The position numbers and the translations under genes were made by a program. The notes beneath the pieces were generated by a model. It did no database searches and was not told the DNA's origin. It worked only from the letters and a program-made list of their open reading frames with translations. From Bacteroidales bacterium (lineage in GTDB: Bacteria; Bacteroidota; Bacteroidia; Bacteroidales; PXBB01), in NCBI GenBank assembly GCA_028698995.1, contig JAQVVM010000003.1:62001-126000 (forward strand): a stretch of DNA of 64,000 nucleotides. The letters are read 5' to 3'. Each line of letters begins with the position of its first letter. The stretch's first letter is position 1. Below, piece after piece: positions 45,864-57,926 of the stretch.

Positions 45864-48800
45864 ATGAAACTCAAATATTTTTTAATCGTAATTTTTCAAT
45901 TGTTAATAACTTTCTTAGGGTCTTTTGCTTATTCACAGGTTCTTACAGGTAATCCAACAGATGCAAGTATTCCCAATCAAAATCCGTTTTTTGATGCATC
46001 TACCAATCATGACCCCTCTGTTACGTTTGAAAACAACAACAACAAAGGTCTTGTTTTTCCTCGTACTGATTTAACCCAGTGGGAATTCAAAACAGATTTG
46101 TTGGATGGCAGCATGTTTCCAACAGCCTTTGATGGCATGATTGTATATAATGTAGGCACAGGCACTACACTTACAGGTCAGGGACAAGTTGTCAGTGTTA
46201 GCCCGGGATTTTACTATTTCTATAATCCAACAGGAACAACAGATATTTCAGATGGCTATTGGATAAAATTAGGAAGTGGCGGAGATAACATATATACAGC
46301 AGATGGTACTATTAATGGAAACCGTCTTGTAGATTTGGATGGAAATAATATAGCTTTTGGTGGTGCAGGCAATGTAAAAGTAGGAGAAAATCCTCAGATA
46401 ACAGCCCCCAGTGCAATAATGGAATTGGAAAGTACCACCAAAGGTATTTTGATACCACGATTAAAAACCACAGAGCGTAATGCGATTTCCTCCCCTGCCA
46501 ATGGATTACTGGTATATGATTTAGATTATGGCCAATTTTGGTATTTTAACGGCACCATTTGGGTTACCGCTATTGGCCCACAAGGTCCCATAGGCTTAAC
46601 AGGTCCTGCCGGATCAGTAGGTCCAACCGGTCCCATGGGCTTAACCGGATTAACCGGCCCAACCGGTCAGGTAGGTCCACAGGGCGATATTGGCCCAGTA
46701 GGTCCGCAAGGCATTCAGGGAGAAGTTGGAATAACCGGAACTACAGGCCCTACAGGTCCTCTGGGTCTTCAAGGTGATGTTGGTCCAACTGGTCCAATTG
46801 GTCCACAGGGAATTCAGGGTGATATAGGATTAACCGGAGCCACCGGAAGTACCGGATTGACGGGCCCAACCGGTTCTGAGGGAGATATGGGGATGATAGG
46901 CCCTCCCGGACCTACTGGATTAACTGGTGTCTCTGGTGCTACCGGACCTCAAGGCATTCAGGGAGAAGTTGGACCTACCGGACCTCAAGGAAATGTTGGA
47001 TCAACAGGAGCAACCGGCCCTATCGGCGCACAAGGACCAATAGGTAATACCGGTGCCATTGGTGCACAAGGCCCCCAGGGTCCCCAGGGAAATGTTGGAG
47101 CAACCGGAGCAACCGGAGTAACCGGAGCAGTTGGTGCAGTTGGAGCCCAAGGTCCCATAGGAAATACCGGAGCTATTGGATCAACCGGTGTGACTGGAGC
47201 TCAAGGTTTAACAGGTAATACCGGAGCCATAGGAACTACAGGTGTAACCGGAGCTATAGGAGCCCAAGGACCACAAGGTCCCCAAGGAAATGTTGGAGCA
47301 ACGGGAGTAACAGGAGCTGTTGGCACAGTTGGAGCCCAAGGTCCCATAGGAAATACCGGAGCTATTGGATCAACCGGTGTGACTGGTGCTATTGGAGCCC
47401 AAGGAATACCAGGTCCTCAAGGAAATGTTGGATCAACAGGAGCAACCGGCGCTGTTGGCGCACAAGGACCAATAGGTAATACAGGAGCTATTGGTTCAAC
47501 AGGTGTAACCGGAGCCATTGGAGCCCAAGGAATACCAGGTCCTCAAGGAAATGTTGGTGCAACCGGCGTAACAGGAGCTGTTGGTGCAGTTGGAGCCCAA
47601 GGCCCAATAGGTAATACAGGAGCTATTGGTTCAACAGGTGTAACCGGAGCCATAGGAGCCCAAGGAATACCAGGGCCTCAAGGAAATGTTGGAGCAACCG
47701 GAGTAACAGGAGCTGTTGGTGCAGTTGGAGCCCAAGGTCCCATAGGAAATACCGGAGCCATAGGAGCAACCGGCGTAACCGGAGCTCAAGGTTTAACAGG
47801 TAATACCGGAGCCATAGGAACTATAGGTGTAACCGGAGCTATAGGAGCCCAAGGTCCACAAGGTCCTCAAGGAAATGTTGGAGCAACGGGAGTAACAGGA
47901 GCTGTTGGTGCAGTTGGAGCCCAAGGTCCCATAGGAAATACCGGAGCCATTGGAGCTACCGGCGTAACCGGAGCCATTGGAGCCCAAGGAATACCAGGGC
48001 CTCAAGGAAATGTTGGAGCAACCGGAGTAACGGGAGCTGTTGGTGCAGTTGGCGCGCAAGGGTCAATAGGCAATACAGGCGCTAAAGGAGCAACCGGAGC
48101 AACCGGAGCACAAGGCCTAACAGGTAATACAGGTGTCATAGGAGCAACCGGTGTAACCGGAGCCATAGGAGCCCAAGGAATACCAGGGCCTCAAGGAAAT
48201 GTTGGCGCAACTGGTGCTATTGGCGCACAAGGTCCTCAAGGAAATGTTGGAGCAACGGGAGTAACAGGAGCTGTTGGTGCAGTTGGCGCGCAAGGGTCAA
48301 TAGGCAATACAGGCGCTAAAGGAGCAACCGGAGCAACCGGAGCAACCGGAGCACAAGGCCTAACAGGTAATACAGGTGCCATAGGAGCCACCGGTGTAAC
48401 CGGAGCTATTGGTGCACAAGGGCCTCAAGGAAATGTCGGATCGACAGGACCAACCGGCGCAGTTGGTGCACAAGGACCCATCGGTAACACTGGAGCAGCA
48501 GGTACAAATGGTACAAATGGTACAAATGGGATTGATGGGGCAACTGGTTCAACTGGAGCTACAGGAGCCAGTGGTGCAGACATTGTCGTAACAAAAAGCA
48601 GTACAACAGTCGTAACTATAGGTGCAGGAGTAAAAACTTTTAGTTTTAGTAATACACCAAATTTGGGATGGATTAATGGAATGCGACTAAGAGCCTCAAA
48701 CAATGCTACCAATTTTGTAGAAGGTATTATAATCACTGTTTCAAGTACAGGAGTTACTATAGATGCAGACTTAGCAGGAGGTAGTGGTACACATGCCAGT

Positions 48801-51053
48801 TGGTATATTGGTATTGCCGGAGAAAAAGGCTTAATCGGAGCTACGGGTATAACAGGTGCTGTTGGTTTTACCGGAGCTATCGGGGCTCAAGGACCAATAG
48901 GATATACCGGAGCACAAGGGGCAATTGGTGTAACGGGTGCTGCTGGTATAAATGGAGTAACAGGTGCAGTAGGCGCCATAGGTAATACCGGTGCAAAAGG
49001 TGCAACCGGAGTAACTGGCGCTTTAGGTGCCACAGGTAATACAGGAGCTATTGGCGCAACTGGTGCAATAGGCGCAGCAGGTATTAATGGAGTAACAGGC
49101 CCAACCGGAGCTGTCGGTGCTCAAGGTAATACAGGTGCCATCGGTCCCATTGGAAATACTGGTGCTATTGGTGCTACAGGTCCTCTAGTTGCAGGTACTT
49201 CTGGTCAGACATTAAGACATAACGGTAGCTCTTGGATTGCCAATGATTTATTATATAACAATGGGACTAATGTGGGTATTGGAACAACTTCCCCGACTTC
49301 AAGGTTGCATTGTGTTAGTACACTATATGGCCCGGTATCACCTGAACAACGTGCATCAATTGCAGGTATTAATACCAATACAGATTTGACGTATAATAAT
49401 GGCATAGGTATTTATGGAAAGTGTAATGCTAACAATGGATACGCTGGCTATTTTGATGGTATAGGTTATTTTAATGATAAAGTAGGCATAGGAACTTATT
49501 CTCCTGCTTCAAAACTTAGTGTTGGAGGAGATGGTAACTCCTTTTACAGAATTTATGGAAATTATACCGGTTCAGGAAGCGGAGGTTTTTATGGAATATA
49601 CGGTGAAGCATCGATTAATTCTACCACTGCAAGTTGCTGGGGGATTTATGGCAAAGCAACGTCTTCTACTTCTGCCGGTGGTTCAACATATGGAGTTATG
49701 GGTAATGCAAGCGGTGCATCTACAAATTATGGTATTTATGGCACAGCATCAGGAGGAACATCAAACTGGGCAGGGTATTTTAATGGCGACGTTTATGCTT
49801 TAGGCAATGTGGGTATCGGAACTACAAGTCCTGCCTACAAACTTGATGTAAGCGGCGATGTGCACACTACTGGAGATTTATATGTTGAAGGAGGAAATAT
49901 TGGGGTAGGCGCACCTCCAAGCAGTTCTTATGGTGTTTATGTCCCCTCAACCGTAGCTCCTTCTTATGGTGTATATGCTTATGGTACTTATACAGGAGGC
50001 TATTTTGAAGATACTGATTTCGGCTCCTATGGGAGAATAGGATACAGCTCTTATGGGGGTTATTTTAATTCTACTAATTCTGGGGGCTATGGTGTAAGAG
50101 CTTATGGTGATTCATATGGCATATACAGTACCTGTTATAATGGCCATTCTTTATATGGTTATTCAAGTGCAACTGGGACTTCACATAAAGCTGGAACCTA
50201 TGGAAGTTCTAAAGGATATATTGAGCTTGAACAAGATTTTTGGTTAGGGGATATTTATCATTTTTGGACTGGTTCTGCAGGTGCTTACGGATATGGAAGT
50301 GAGTCTTATGTCGATGGTGGAACATATAATAAAAAAGGTGGTTTAGGTGTATATGGAAATGGCACCATGGTTGGTGTGTTAGCTGATGGAGGTAAAATAG
50401 ATATAACTTATGCAAAAATGAATGGTTTAAAAGATGTATCATTGCTTAGCTCACTCTTTTCTGGAGAATTTCATTTCGGAACAGGTATTATTGCAACAGG
50501 AACTGCCGGTGGAAAATTTAAAGGACTTCAATTTGGAACAATATCCAAGGCTATGGGTATTGGCCTGCTTTCTAGTTCTGAAAAAAACATTTCTGCCTAT
50601 TTTACTGAAAATGCTGTTGCTGAAGGTGGTTATGCTTCTGTACTAGGTGCTGGTAGCAATAATGCAAAAATTGCCTATGCTGTTTTATCTGTAGGTAAAA
50701 CAATTATGATTTCAGGATCTGCTGAGTTTAACCATGGAAATGCTGATATCAATTTCGACCCTGCAATAGCACAGTTTGTTGACGAAACTTTGTCTATTAC
50801 TGTATCAATTACACCCACTGAAATTGCTGATGGCCGCTGGGCAGTCGTTAGTAAAACGGCACAAGGATTTAAAGCCATTAAAGATGGCATTGATAATATG
50901 ACTTTTGATTATATTGCTATTTTGCCTTTGAAGGATAATATACCTCTTCCTGAGGATGTTATAAGTAAAGAGTTTCAGCAAATAATTTATAAAGCTGTTA
51001 ATTTCCATGTAGAAACTACTACTATACCTGAAGAGGAACCAGAACAGGAGTAA
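45864..51053 (+). CDS. giant secreted collagen-like (Gly-X-Y) protein 1
   Basis: A 1729-residue exported protein. Residues 1-24 are a signal peptide (ending FAYSQ). Residues 25-235 are a head domain that is nearly identical in the second paralogue and contains the [24 protein letters not shown] motif frequent in Bacteroidota surface and tail-fibre-like proteins. From about 236 to 905 and 988 to 1108 run Gly-X-Y triplets of collagen type, with Thr often at the third place ([10 protein letters not shown]) and little proline. A globular insert of about 80 residues ([10 protein letters not shown] to WYIGIAGE) interrupts them. The C-terminus has tail-fibre signatures VGIGTTSP (twice) and Gly/Tyr/Ser repeats, then a unique C-terminal domain of about 200 residues and an acidic end. 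No type IX sorting domain is evident. Partner gene 51837-57926. Confidence 0.85.
46570..49180 (+). repeat. collagen-like repeat block of protein 1
   Basis: Tandem 9-bp (Gly-X-Y) units grouped in higher-order repeats, the clearest being a 45-residue (135-bp) module, [18 protein letters not shown] joined to [10 protein letters not shown] and [15 protein letters not shown]. Almost identical copies recur from about 47.1 kb to 48.4 kb. The globular insert lies at about 48577-48825. Confidence 0.9.
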
Positions 51054-51836
51054 GCTTTCGTCTTTATTAATGGTTTCACATTTTTTCGGTTAATTACTTG
51101 AATAGCAAGTATTTGATTTATTAGATATAATTTGCTAAGATAATTCATATAATTATTAAAAAATAATATGCGCTTTTATTTTACTAATTTTAATCCAATT
51201 TTTATACACTACAAAAATTTTTATCAATAACCTTGATTATTTTCTCGTGTGATTATTAAGTCAAACCTTTGTTACTTCAATTTTAATTTTTGATTTAATG
51301 CATGGGTTTCATAAGTTTTAAATAAAATACCTTGCACTTGTTGTACACAAAATATTCATAAGTGTATAATAATGTGAGTGTTGTGTGTTCCGATGGTTCT
51401 ATCGGAACAGCAGGCCCTAAATACTTTTTAACCGCTGTAATAATAATATCTGAGGTTCTGAAAGAGCGATGAATACTCCTCTCAACATAAATTCCAATGT
51501 AATTTAACACTCTTTGTTTGACTTTTCCATCTTCTCTACAATTTTCAACTTCGGCCAGATATGTGTCGCTTTTTTCTTATAAATAACATAGTGTATAAAA
51601 CATGGAGTAAAAGTTAAGTATTTTAATTCACGCCTGAATAAAAATATAGCATGAATAAAGGGTGTAAATATTACTTTTCGTTTTAGCCATTTAAATATTT
51701 TGGTAGATTATCTATTAAAATTTATACCACTTAACCAAAAAATACAACCAAATACTGTTTATTTTATTTTATTATACATTGTCATAGTAATATTAACTAT
51801 TTTTATGATTTTACATAATGTATAATTATTTCGTAT
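51054..51836. other. 783-bp gap between the collagen-like genes
   Basis: No intact gene. It contains the transposase remnant at 51295-51589 and, inside it, a perfect 8-bp hairpin GTTCCGAT/ATCGGAAC (51387-51408). The rest is AT-rich; no promoter for the second collagen-like gene is identified with confidence. Confidence 0.6.
51295..51589 (-). pseudogene. transposase N-terminal fragment (IS1634-like), frameshifted
   Basis: Read on the minus strand from ATG at 51589, the first codons give MLFIRKK. After a one-base shift in an A-run (about 51570) the frame continues as SDTYLAEVENCREDGKVKQR then VLNYIG, the usual start of an IS1634/IS4-type transposase (basic start, aromatic/acid 'ENxRExGKVKQRVLxYIG' block). 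The next part (SDIIITAVKKYLGPAVPI) matches the following region loosely, and then a stop ends the frame after about 95 codons. Catalytic DDE residues are absent. So it is a short dead remnant of an insertion sequence. The recognition is by pattern only and rests on the 25-residue block. Confidence 0.5.
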
Positions 51837-54800
51837 ATGAAAAAAATACTTTTAATCTCGTTGACATGTATATTTAGCTTTGGTTTATTAAAATCAGAAG
51901 CACAAGTTCTCACAGGAAATCCGGTAGATCCGAGTATCCCCAATCAAAACCCGTTTTTTGATGCATCCACCAATCATGATCCCTCGGTTACTTTTGAAAA
52001 TAACAACAATAAGGGTCTTGTTTTTCCTCGTACTGATTTAACCCAATGGGAATTCAAAACAGATTTGTTGGATGGCAGCATGTTTCCAACAGCCTTTGAT
52101 GGCATGATAGTGTATAATGTAGGCACAGGCAGCACGCTTACAGGTCAGGGACAAGTAGTCAGTGTTACTCCGGGTTTTTACTATTTCTATAATCCAACAG
52201 GGACAATAGATATTTCAGATGGCTATTGGATAAAATTAGGAAGTGGTGGAGATAACATATATACAGCAGATGGTACTATTAATGGAAACCGCCTTTTAGA
52301 TCTGGATGGAAATAATATAGCTTTTGGTGATGTAAGAAATTATAAAATAGGAGATAATCCTCAGATAACCGCTCCGAGTGCAATAATGGAATTAGAAAGC
52401 ACTTCCAAAGGTATTTTGATACCACGATTAAAAACCACAGAGCGCAATGCCATTTCATCTCCCGCCAATGGATTACTGGTATATGATTTAGATTATGGCC
52501 AATTTTGGTATTTTAACGGCAGCATATGGGTTGCCGCTATAGGCCCACAAGGCCCCATAGGTTTAACAGGTCCGGCGGGAGCAGTAGGTCCAACCGGTCC
52601 CATGGGCTTAACCGGCCCAACCGGACCTGAGGGAGACATGGGTATGATAGGCCCTCCCGGTCCTACCGGATTAACCGGTTCTCCCGGAGCTACAGGTCCG
52701 ACAGGTTTTCAGGGCCTTCAAGGTGAAGTCGGTCCAACCGGCCCAATTGGTCCACAGGGAGATATTGGCCCCATAGGCCCACAGGGAATTCAGGGTGATG
52801 CAGGAATAACAGGAGCTACCGGAAATACGGGATTGACCGGTCCAACCGGCCCAATAGGTCCACAAGGTGATATTGGCCCCATAGGCCCACAGGGAATTCA
52901 GGGTGATGCAGGAATAACCGGAGCTACCGGAAATACGGGATTGACCGGTCCAACCGGCCCAATAGGTCCACAAGGTGATATTGGCCCCATAGGTCCACAG
53001 GGAATTCAGGGCGATGCAGGAATAACCGGAGCTACCGGAAATACCGGATTAACCGGCCCAATAGGTCCACAAGGTGATATTGGCCCAGTAGGTCCACAGG
53101 GAATTCCGGGTGATGTAGGATTAACCGGAGCCACAGGTCCGACAGGTTTCCAGGGCTTTCAAGGTGAAGTCGGTCCAACCGGCCCAATTGGTCCACAGGG
53201 AGATATTGGCCCCATAGGCCCACAGGGAATTCAGGGTGATGCAGGAATAACCGGAGCTACCGGAAATACGGGATTGACCGGTCCAACCGGCCCAATCGGT
53301 TCACAAGGTGATATTGGCCCTATAGGCCCACAGGGAATTCAGGGTGATGCAGGAATAACAGGAGCTACCGGAAATACCGGATTAACCGGTCCAACCGGCC
53401 AACAAGGTGATGTTGGTCCAACGGGCCCCATAGGCCCACAGGGAATTCAGGGTGATGCAGGAATAACCGGAGCTACTGGATTAACCGGTCCAACCGGCCC
53501 AATAGGTCCACAGGGAATTCAGGGTGATGCAGGATTAACCGGAGCTACCGGAAATACCGGATTAACAGGTCCAACCGGTCCCGAAGGAGATATGGGTATG
53601 ATAGGTCCTCCCGGGCCTACCGGTTTAACGGGTTCTCCGGGAGCTACTGGACCAACAGGCCCCCAAGGTCCTCAAGGAAATATCGGTATGACTGGCGCTA
53701 CCGGAGCCACGGGTAATACTGGTGCAATAGGTGCTCAAGGTCCAATAGGTAATACAGGTGCTATAGGAGCAACCGGAGTAACCGGTGCAATTGGAGCGAC
53801 AGGTGCCAGCGGAGCCGATATTGTCGTAACACAAAGTAGCACAACACCAGTAACAATAAGCACAGGAGTAAAAACCTTTAATTATAGCAACACACCAAAT
53901 TTAGGATGGATTAATGGAATGCGACTTAGAGCCTCAAACAATGCGACCAATTTTATAGAAGGTGTAATTATATCTGTATCTGGAACATCTGTATCAATAG
54001 TTGTAGATTTAACAGAAGGAAGTGGAACACACGCCAGCTGGTATATTGGTATAGCTGGTGAAATTGGCCTAATAGGCGCAACCGGTGTAACCGGAGCTAT
54101 TGGAGCACAAGGAATACCGGGGCCTCAGGGAAATGTTGGAGCGACAGGAGTAACCGGAGCTGTTGGTGCAGTTGGTGCAGTTGGCGCGCAAGGACCAATA
54201 GGCAATACAGGCGCTAAAGGAGCAACGGGAGTAACCGGCGCGCAAGGTTTAACAGGTAATACAGGTGCCATAGGAGCAACCGGAGTAACCGGAGCCATTG
54301 GAGCACAAGGAATACCGGGCATTCAAGGAAATGTTGGAGCAACGGGAGTAACCGGAGCTCAAGGTTTAACAGGTAATACAGGTGCCATAGGCGCAACCGG
54401 AGTAACCGGAGCTATTGGTGCCCAAGGAATACCGGGGCCTCAAGGAAATGTTGGAGCAACAGGAGTAACCGGAGCTGTAGGTGCAGTTGGCGCGCAAGGG
54501 CCAATAGGTTATACCGGAGCTAAAGGCGCAACCGGTGTAACCGGCGCTATTGGAGCACAAGGAATACCAGGTCCCCAGGGAAATGTTGGAGCGACAGGAG
54601 TAACAGGAGCTGTTGGTGCAGTTGGCGCACAAGGAATACCGGGCATTCAAGGAAATGTTGGAGCAACAGGAGTAACCGGAGCAGTTGGTGCAGTTGGCGC
54701 GCAAGGGCCAATAGGTATTACAGGCGCTAAAGGAGCAACGGGAGTAACCGGAGCTCAAGGTTTAACTGGTAATACAGGTGCCATAGGAGCAACCGGTGTA

Positions 54801-57800
54801 ACCGGAGCCATTGGAGCACAAGGAATACCGGGCATTCAAGGAAATGTTGGAGCGACAGGAGTAACCGGAGCTGTTGGTGCAGTTGGCGCGCAAGGACCAA
54901 TAGGTAATACAGGCGCTAAAGGAGCAACGGGAGTAACCGGAGCTCAAGGTTTAACAGGTAATACAGGTGCCATAGGCGCAACCGGTGTAACCGGAGCCAT
55001 TGGAGCACAAGGAATACCGGGCATTCAAGGAAATGTTGGAGCAACCGGAGTAACCGGAGCTGTTGGTGCAGTTGGAGCGCAAGGACCAATAGGCAATACA
55101 GGCGCTAAAGGAGCAACGGGAGTAACCGGAGCTCAAGGTTTAACAGGTAATACAGGTGCCATAGGCGCAACCGGTGTAACCGGTGCCATTGGTACACAAG
55201 GAATACCAGGACCTCAAGGAAATGTTGGAGCAACAGGTTCAACTGGAGCTGTTGGTTCAATTGGAGCTCAAGGTCCAATAGGCAATACAGGTGCTAAAGG
55301 AGCAACGGGAGCAACCGGAGCGCAAGGTTTAACAGGTAATACAGGAGCTATAGGAGCTACAGGCGTAACCGGCGCTATTGGTGCACAAGGAATACCGGGG
55401 CCTCAAGGAAATGTTGGAGCAACAGGAGTAACAGGAGTAACCGGAGCAGTTGGTGCAGTTGGCGCGCAAGGACCAATAGGTAATACAGGCGCTAAAGGAG
55501 CAACAGGAGTAACCGGAGCAGTTGGTGCAGTTGGCGCACAAGGTCCAATAGGCAATACAGGTGCCATAGGCGCAACCGGATCTACCGGCGCTGCCGGAAC
55601 AAACGGTACCAATGGAACAAACGGTACCAATGGATCCACAGGGCCTACCGGAGCTACTGGCCCCCTTGTTGCTGGTACTTCTGGTCAAACACTAAGGCAC
55701 AACGGTAGTACTTGGGTTGCCAATAGTAGAATTTATGATAATGGTACTACAATAAAATTGGGTACTACATCTAGTCTTACATCAACTTTATCAGGTGTAA
55801 CTATTGCACATGATGTGGATGGAATGCAACAAGGAGTAACTGATGCACATATTGCATTAAGCCTTCATCATGACTTGGATGCTACAAATCAGGGTGTAGC
55901 TTTAGCTTTTGGTGTATCAACATTGGATGAAGCTATAGGCGCCAAAATAGTGCACCTTAGAGAAGGAGCTTACAGTTCTGGATCATTATGCTTTTTTACT
56001 AAAAATTCCGGAGCAGGAACTCAAGACCAAACTACTGAAAAAATGAGAATCACTGCCAATGGAAATGTGGGTATTGGTACTACCAACCCCATTCAAATGC
56101 TTGATATTAATGGTCAAATACGTATTGGTGGTGGGTCGCCGGGTTCGGGCAAAGTATTAACTTCTGATGCTAATGGTGTTGGTACTTGGGTAACTCCAAC
56201 CACAGGTACAGTAACATCTATTGCCACTAACAATGGCATTACCGGTGGCACTATTACTTCAAGCGGAACTATTGGATTGACAGGGCAGGCCTTAGCATTG
56301 CATAATTTATCATCCAATGGAATTATTGTAAGAACCGGTGCTGGAACAGTAGCAGCACGCAGTATAACCGTAAGTGGTAATGGTATAGCTGTTTCAAATG
56401 GAGATGGCATCAGCGGGAACCCCACCTTATCTTTAAGCATTGGCACAGGCTCTACTCAGGTCGCATCAGGAAACCACACCCATGACGCCTCTCATATTGT
56501 ATCCGGTGAACTTAACAGGGCTAGAGTCAGAAGAATGATTTCTGCAGATACAAGAAATGATAACCCTAACCCAGAAACTTACGAAAATGCTATACAGGCA
56601 GATTTTAAAGCAAACACAACAGATGGATTATCAGATGGAGGTACCTATCATGGTGTATTATCTTTCAGAACCTATGGTTCAAGCACAGATTTTTCGGGTG
56701 GACAAATGCACCAGTTAGGATTTACTGATAATGGTAACCTTCATATCAGAACGTCTTCAGGTACAACAGCATGGACGGCTTGGAAAAAAATTATGCTGGG
56801 CGAAATGTCAGGAACAACAAACTACGTAGCTAAATTTACAGGAACCAATGCTCTCGGAAATTCCGTAATATACGATAATGGAACAAATGTGGGGATAGGG
56901 TTAACATATCCCTATTCAAAGCTTGATGTATATGATAGTGACACTACAAAATCTAATATAATTTATGCCTCTAAACCCTCAAACAACTATGGCGGTGGCA
57001 GATCAGTTATTTATGGCTACAGATCTGGTTCTTATGTAAGTGGTGGCACAGGTAACGGCGGAACTGCTTATTCAAATTATGGCTCTTGCGTGGGAGTTAG
57101 AGGTTCTTCTTTTTACGGAAATACTTATTCATTTGGAGTACATGGGACAAACTGGAACGATTATACCAGGTGCGGTGGTACACTTGGTTCAGATTACTTT
57201 GGAGATTATTGGGCCTCATTAGGATATAAAAATTCAGGAAGTTCTACTTATGGTGTATATTGGACAAATTCCGGATCCGGTGCTGGTTATAATGCCGGTG
57301 GCTCTGCCGTAGCAGGAATAGGTGCAGGCGGTTATGGCGATATGCTTGGTCTATGGACTCGTGGTGATGTTATGGGTCAAATTGTAGCCGGCGAACTTTT
57401 TGCTTCTTACAATATGGGAAATACCTATACTTCCGGTACTCAGGTTGAACTTGTCAATACCGGCACAGAAAGAGTTGCTGCCTATACGGTCACATCTCGG
57501 GAAATGAAAGTATATGACAATGGTTTCGCTACCTTATCCGGCACTGAAACATATATCCCGTTCGATCAGAATTTTAGTAATATGCTCAGTACAGAACGAC
57601 CTGTAGTAACCATTACACCAATTGGACAACAAGCCATGATATACTTAAAATCAATTACAAAAGATGGGTTTATTGTTGCATCGAATACATCTCAGAATAT
57701 TGAATTTGCATGGATTGCTGTTGGGAAAAGAGTTGACGCCGAAGAACACACCCGCATTCCCGAAGACCTTAAAGATATCCGTTTTGATGAAAACTTAAAA

Positions 57801-57926
57801 GATGTTATGTTTGATGAAAACAATAAAGAACATAACGCTAAGGCGATGTGGTGGGATGGTAACAGATTGCGATTTGGACAATTACCTGCAGGATTAAACC
57901 CTGTTAGACCAAAACCGGAAGAATAG
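51837..57926 (+). CDS. giant secreted collagen-like protein 2 with pyocin-knob-like tail
   Basis: A 2029-residue paralogue of protein 1. Signal peptide at about 1-22 (ending KSEAQ); head domain 23-235 nearly identical to protein 1. Gly-X-Y shafts run at about 236-660 and 745-1278; the first is proline-rich ([19 protein letters not shown]), the second threonine-rich. The insert [13 protein letters not shown] to WYIGIAGE (about 661-743) matches protein 1. The tail differs: [22 protein letters not shown], then [13 protein letters not shown] as in tail-fibre proteins, then a probable pyocin-knob domain (about 1560-1660; ending [18 protein letters not shown]), then a Gly/Tyr/Ser-rich domain and a C-terminus rich in acidic and basic residues. 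It probably forms a trimeric surface fibre; receptor or partner unknown. Confidence 0.85.
52782..53105 (+). repeat. 108-bp tandem units (36 residues)
   Basis: The word CAGGGAATTCAGGG starts at 52782, 52890 and 52998, each 108 bp apart, and the units are almost identical. A degenerate version continues to about 53.5 kb with shortened units. Confidence 0.9.
54642..55208 (+). repeat. 189-bp tandem units (63 residues)
   Basis: GGCATTCAAGGAAATG starts at 54642, 54831 and 55020; the equivalent point in the next unit is 55209. So three exact 189-bp periods stand here. Within each unit a 45-residue part is shared with the 135-bp module of protein 1. Confidence 0.9.

Follow-up and report, generated by a model that had tools for sequence, protein, structure and literature searches.

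The window analysed here is a 64-kb stretch of contig C28 (JAQVVM010000003.1, positions 62001-126000) from the 4.47 Mb draft genome of a Bacteroidales bacterium (GCA_028698995.1; 119 contigs, 98% complete). It holds two adjacent paralogous genes on the forward strand, A (45864..51053) and B (51837..57926), which their open reading frames and the Pfam Collagen profile identify as intact genes for collagen-like fibre proteins of 1729 and 2029 residues. Protein A opens with a putative signal peptide of 24 residues (45864..45935), probably cleaved before QVLTGNP, since the conserved block opens at that Q in all paralogues; a mature head of 213 residues follows, delimited by paralogue alignment (45936..46574). 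A repeat scan divides the next part into a Gly-X-Y shaft of 223 triplets (residues 238-906; 46575..48581), a non-collagen insert of 76 residues (48582..48809), also recognised by PHROG and by alignment to B, and a second shaft of 42 triplets (residues 983-1108; 48810..49187), and the protein closes with a tail of 621 residues (49188..51053). Protein B consists of a putative signal peptide of 22 residues (51837..51902), placed from its sequence and the paralogue alignment, a head of 213 residues (51903..52541), shafts of 142 triplets (residues 236-661; 52542..53819) and 180 triplets (residues 738-1277; 54048..55667) on either side of a 76-residue insert (53820..54047), and a tail of 752 residues (55668..57926), in which PHROG and BLAST searches distinguish a connector, a knob and a C-terminal module common to B and its paralogue C50. 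The neighbours are metabolic in character, with a patatin-like gene and an oxidoreductase upstream, and genes for a LUD-domain protein, a ribose/galactose isomerase-type protein, an asparaginase-type protein and an M28 peptidase with a type IX secretion system (T9SS) sorting domain downstream.

The mature heads of A and B are 93% identical over 213 residues, which bears out the original prediction that adjacent paralogues share a nearly identical head of about 210 residues. Its description of the pair as twins has to be abandoned, as A and B belong to a head-sharing family of about 15 genes; both this family and the 76-residue shaft insert common to A and B had been overlooked. A search of the genome with the B head gave 16 head-bearing places, both in arrays (six on contig C64, four on C98 and two on C28) and dispersed (C49 with two, C83 and C50 with a single one each). 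We put the number of genes at about 15 because some pieces at contig ends are probably parts of the same gene: C49 ends in a 5' piece and C50 opens with a 3' piece, and these two, which show no overlap, may belong together; likewise, C49a may be the continuation of the gene truncated where C64 begins. These counts rest on sequence searches and retrieved stretches of the genome, and one paralogue, C64c, contains an assembly gap.

Conservation among the paralogues begins exactly at the predicted mature N-terminus (QVLTGNP), and many of their BLAST alignments open at gene nucleotides 62-73, the start of the mature protein. Residues 1-109 of the head constitute the family-wide module, while the remainder includes a second module (KGxLxPR...WYFNG...W); roughly half of the genes are conserved only up to about residue 109, the others as far as the collagen. 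Mean nucleotide identity among the paralogues is 0.87 in the head, 0.67 in the signal peptides, for which shuffling gives a baseline of 0.59, and 0.64 in the upstream DNA. Over 88 head codons the paralogue comparison gave a mean pS of 0.36 against a mean pN of 0.04. Silent sites have diverged and the protein has not, a codon pattern which indicates that purifying selection maintains the head, possibly with the help of gene conversion. The same divergence at synonymous sites argues that the heads are not alike solely because they were duplicated recently, and that explanation was rejected.

When 395 genomes of the phylum were searched with the 109-residue module, at most 11 candidates being scored per genome, four other carriers emerged, all from a single genus and with 1-3 copies each. 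A scan of GTDB contigs other than those of the source genome located related heads in Myroides, Chryseobacterium, Riemerella, a Crocinitomicaceae bacterium and other Bacteroidota, where they are fused to non-collagen tails, one of which ends like S74 proteins. The head has no match in PHROG, Pfam or NCBIfam, no relative in the viral contigs searched and no significant match among solved structures. Its relatives in the Flavobacteriales and its absence from viral contigs argue for a bacterial origin, and a phage origin for this part was rejected. The fibre plan proposed originally, which likened the proteins to phage receptor-binding fibres, stands as far as the signal peptide with head, the collagen stalk and the phage-type tip are concerned, and fails for the head as a phage part. 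The structure model of the head is poor (mean pLDDT 52, from a 13-sequence alignment), so it is the conservation that suggests a docking role for it.

The second head module appears, from its sequence pattern, to be a widespread unnamed fibre module of the Bacteroidota; searched as KGxLxPR...FWYFNG...W it gave 34 matches in genome G014 and 27 in G048, both of the same order (loci L024 and L025). Two small secreted proteins of 236-241 residues that adjoin the C49 fibres (L012:7418-8904) share it.

The shafts are collagen-like as originally described. Gly-X-Y is unbroken within each block and amounts to 265 triplets in A and 322 in B (Pfam Collagen, E = 4e-111 and 5.5e-137, respectively), and the longest in-phase glycine runs, of 223 and 180 triplets, compare with at most 9 in composition-preserving shuffles. 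Threonine prevails at the Y position (102 of 265 triplets in A and 131 of 322 in B); proline occupies X and seldom Y, and charged residues are few, so that the stability of a triple helix in these shafts is not assured. Glycosylated threonine as in Bacillus BclA, which the original prediction brought up, is conjectural here; the O-glycosylation sequon known from Bacteroides, D(S/T)(A/I/L/V/M/T), is absent from the shafts of both proteins. The shaft inserts of A and B are 81% identical over 85 aligned residues and match phrog_31840 (E = 1.7e-13). A tblastn search with the insert, in its B copy, found a protein from Aphanizomenon phage CL131 at 49% identity, in which two short Gly-X-Y blocks lie close to the copies of the domain; a search of the viral contigs with peptide patterns confirmed no further instance.

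BLAST similarity between the tails of A and B is confined to the first 29 residues, in agreement with the original prediction of different C-terminal modules. Most tails in the family, including that of A, open with a connector ending in NVGIGTTSP, which is a plausible candidate for a crossover site. Over most of its length the tail of A has no family match in BLAST and profile scans, which returned only a 25-residue match to phrog_28668. Elsewhere in the family the tips are varied: the tip of C64c is glycine-rich as read from its sequence, that of C83 is Gly_rich_2, that of C49b Fib_succ_major and that of C64b S74, while C64d, C64e, C98c and C98d carry YadA_head tips with or without S74. C98a combines an Lcl_C tip (E = 1.5e-11) with fn3-like repeats and a shaft of only 8 triplets, and is the only paralogue scanned to have Lcl_C, which A and B lack; several other tips have no family match. 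B and C50 share a C-terminal part of 268 residues at 54% identity, and C50 has no knob. In a tree of the heads, A pairs with the dispersed C83, and B groups with C64c and C49b, the closest heads of all (96.5-98% nucleotide identity over 318 nucleotides). That these three carry unrelated tips counts in favour of tip exchange, and the notion of interchangeable tails, first drawn from two genes, is strongly extended by the paralogues. A diversity-generating retroelement was considered as the source of this variety and rejected, with no RVT_1 match above the cut-off in the genome. One weak match to a reverse transcriptase, interrupted by stop codons (G000:C91:20501-20805), is possibly a decayed retroelement.

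The tip of B is a knob (about residues 1565-1662; 56529..56822), located by PHROG, viral contigs, phage records and a structure model. It matches the tail fibre family phrog_5342 (E = 1.4e-17), has relatives at 33 loci on viral contigs with up to 63% identity, and recurs in 45 phage records, mostly of cyanophages, where the annotation reads tail fibre or structural protein. The AlphaFold model is confident (pLDDT 84). Among viral models Foldseek pairs it with a phage collagen-repeat protein (E = 1.3e-4) and a Synechococcus phage protein (E = 2.0e-4); against the PDB its hits are not significant (E above 0.1), and the knob sequence has no match among PDB chain sequences. With VIA-align 2, ten of the eleven best PDB rows are by name phage or pyocin fibres, spikes or baseplates (Z 5.2-7.1, below 8), and the knob aligns to residues 443-538 of the R1 and R2 pyocin fibres (Z 5.2-5.5, 83-84 residues, rmsd about 4), although such Z values alone could reflect a common arrangement and not close kinship. 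With the sequence evidence added, the assignment of a phage tail-fibre knob in B is good, as the original prediction had it. Its closest sequence relatives are the fibres of viral contigs and cyanophages and not R-type pyocins, with which it would share an arrangement (Z below 8, no PDB sequence match).

By its sequence distribution the knob appears to be mainly viral. The search in related genomes that the original prediction called for does find it, but in only one other of the 395 genomes of the phylum. Two tail fibres of about 2800-2900 residues on viral contigs (L093:4833-13214 and L099:4524-13217) combine long collagen blocks with the same knob and end in coiled-coil/S74-type parts, all within one protein; the first has the order collagen-knob-S74 and is 45% identical to B over 139 residues around the knob. 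A pattern search of viral contigs did not recover the C-terminal module of B, and the end of one viral fibre, L077, resembles it weakly (E = 5e-5, in a single comparison).

Every complete head-bearing copy opens with a signal-peptide-like segment. In A, B and nine paralogues, Pfam scans found no T9SS C-terminal sorting domain (Por_Secre_tail) and no YadA membrane anchor, though YadA_head is present in some, and the fibres have no lipobox. T9SS sorting domains number at least 150 in the source genome; one of them falls within a giant protein, encoded by an open frame of 11,730 residues (G000:C85:96097-96303).

Taken together, these data are best read as describing a lineage-specific family of trimeric collagen-like adhesins that are exported, share a docking base and carry binding tips that are exchanged and in part phage-type; we give this reading a probability of about two in three. 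Its foundation, namely the architecture, the pattern of conservation, the diversity of the tips and the homology of knob and insert, is established, and from it we infer the trimer, the triple helix, the outer-surface location, anchoring by the head, adhesion and cassette exchange. The signal peptide probably carries the fibre through the inner membrane. Trimerisation would start via the C-terminal globular parts, as S74, YadA_head and Lcl_C-type modules are trimeric in their known proteins, and the Gly-X-Y region would then zip into a collagen triple helix that acts as a spacer, from none to about 280 nm in length if 0.286 nm per residue is assumed. The common mature N-terminal head, as a constant docking or export module, would hold the fibre at the cell, with the variable tip exposed and binding a ligand such as a glycan. 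Shaft and tip would be exchanged between copies, some of these modules being drawn from the same pool as those of phage tail fibres. Against this reading, the fibres have no T9SS signal, lipobox or YadA-type anchor, and the route across the outer membrane is its main gap.

A more specific version is tentative, and we hold it to be somewhat doubtful. Here one head would dock all fibres to the same partner on the cell surface, much as the N-terminus of a phage fibre docks to the virion, and shafts and tips would be swapped as cassettes among the roughly 15 loci and with phages to give an attachment repertoire; the head would then represent an anchoring or export domain of a kind not described before, one that needs no T9SS, lipid or YadA-type anchor.

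The great length and repetitiveness of the shafts and the many copies would also suit structural fibres that assemble into an extracellular sheath or matrix, such as biofilm filaments, with tips that serve mainly in trimerisation and capping, and S74 and YadA-head modules do drive folding or form stalks elsewhere. We consider this unlikely, as a matrix would have little use for such a range of unrelated tips, and the Lcl_C, Fib_succ_major, glycine-rich and knob tips belong to families with a binding role or a phage receptor-binding context. Nor does a shaft length that ranges across the family from zero to 322 triplets favour it.

The phage-type knob and insert, the S74 tips and the occurrence of collagen-knob-S74 fibres in viral contigs raise the question of whether the proteins are parts of a phage, a tailocin or an extracellular contractile injection system. 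This is largely refuted: phage fibres assemble in the cytoplasm, whereas each complete copy here has a signal-peptide-like start, and the head is absent from viral contigs. PHROG scans of nine neighbours of A and B found no virion genes, in line with the original prediction that the locus is not a prophage, and no Phage_sheath_1 match occurs in the source genome, on which ground a contractile tail or injection system was rejected. Hardly more probable is a decoy function, in which phage-fibre-like tips occupy phage receptors or block adsorption. The identity of up to 63% between the knob and those of viral contigs would fit, but the knob sits on only one of about 15 tips and the others have no special link to phage knobs.

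The adhesin reading has precedents in known systems. Lcl_C is a family that includes the trimeric glycan-binding domain of Legionella Lcl, and Lcl homologues are listed in Bacteroidota (PMC11162425). Like the present family, Lcl has a signal sequence, a short N-terminal stretch for surface targeting, a collagen stalk of variable length and a globular C-terminal tip, of the type found on paralogue C98a; it differs in that only one gene encodes it, its N-terminus is a helix of 30 residues and its stalk is short and helical, whereas the family here comprises about 15 genes with a common beta-rich head of 109-213 residues and many tip types. Pasteuria ramosa likewise shows a lineage-specific expansion of collagen-like proteins, partly clustered and proposed as adhesins, but these are Bacillota spore proteins in triplets, and neither N- or C-terminal domains nor a constant head with phage-type tips were found to be mentioned in the paper (PMC13233619). 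The E. coli prophage EPcl proteins, of which EPclB has two collagen blocks divided by a fibre repeat (PMC3368898), and the viral L093 and L099 fibres resemble A and B in joining collagen blocks to fibre modules; unlike A and B, whose head is an exported bacterial one and which lie far from phage genes, these fibres bind the virion through their N-termini and have no signal peptide. In the open-access literature we found no description of this Bacteroidota family.

The family is thus a large, lineage-specific set of collagen-like fibres in the Bacteroidota whose base is constant and whose tips appear to be freely exchanged, and it links bacterial adhesins and phage receptor-binding proteins within a single gene family. 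It offers a testable case of traffic in binding modules, whether from phage to host or from host to phage, and should the head prove to be a docking domain, it would represent a new Gram-negative way to hold fibres and a handle for protein display. The genome also encodes a second, distinct collagen-like group with another head (SAMLDV..KGxLVPRM module), found at G000:C37:1-1266 and C55:3-9072 (L016 and L017). One of its members, C55b, is a protein of 2265 residues with four collagen blocks separated by three copies of an 80-residue repeated insert, and a gene beside this group (C37, 1291-2352) looks by eye like one for a PorP/SprF-type protein.
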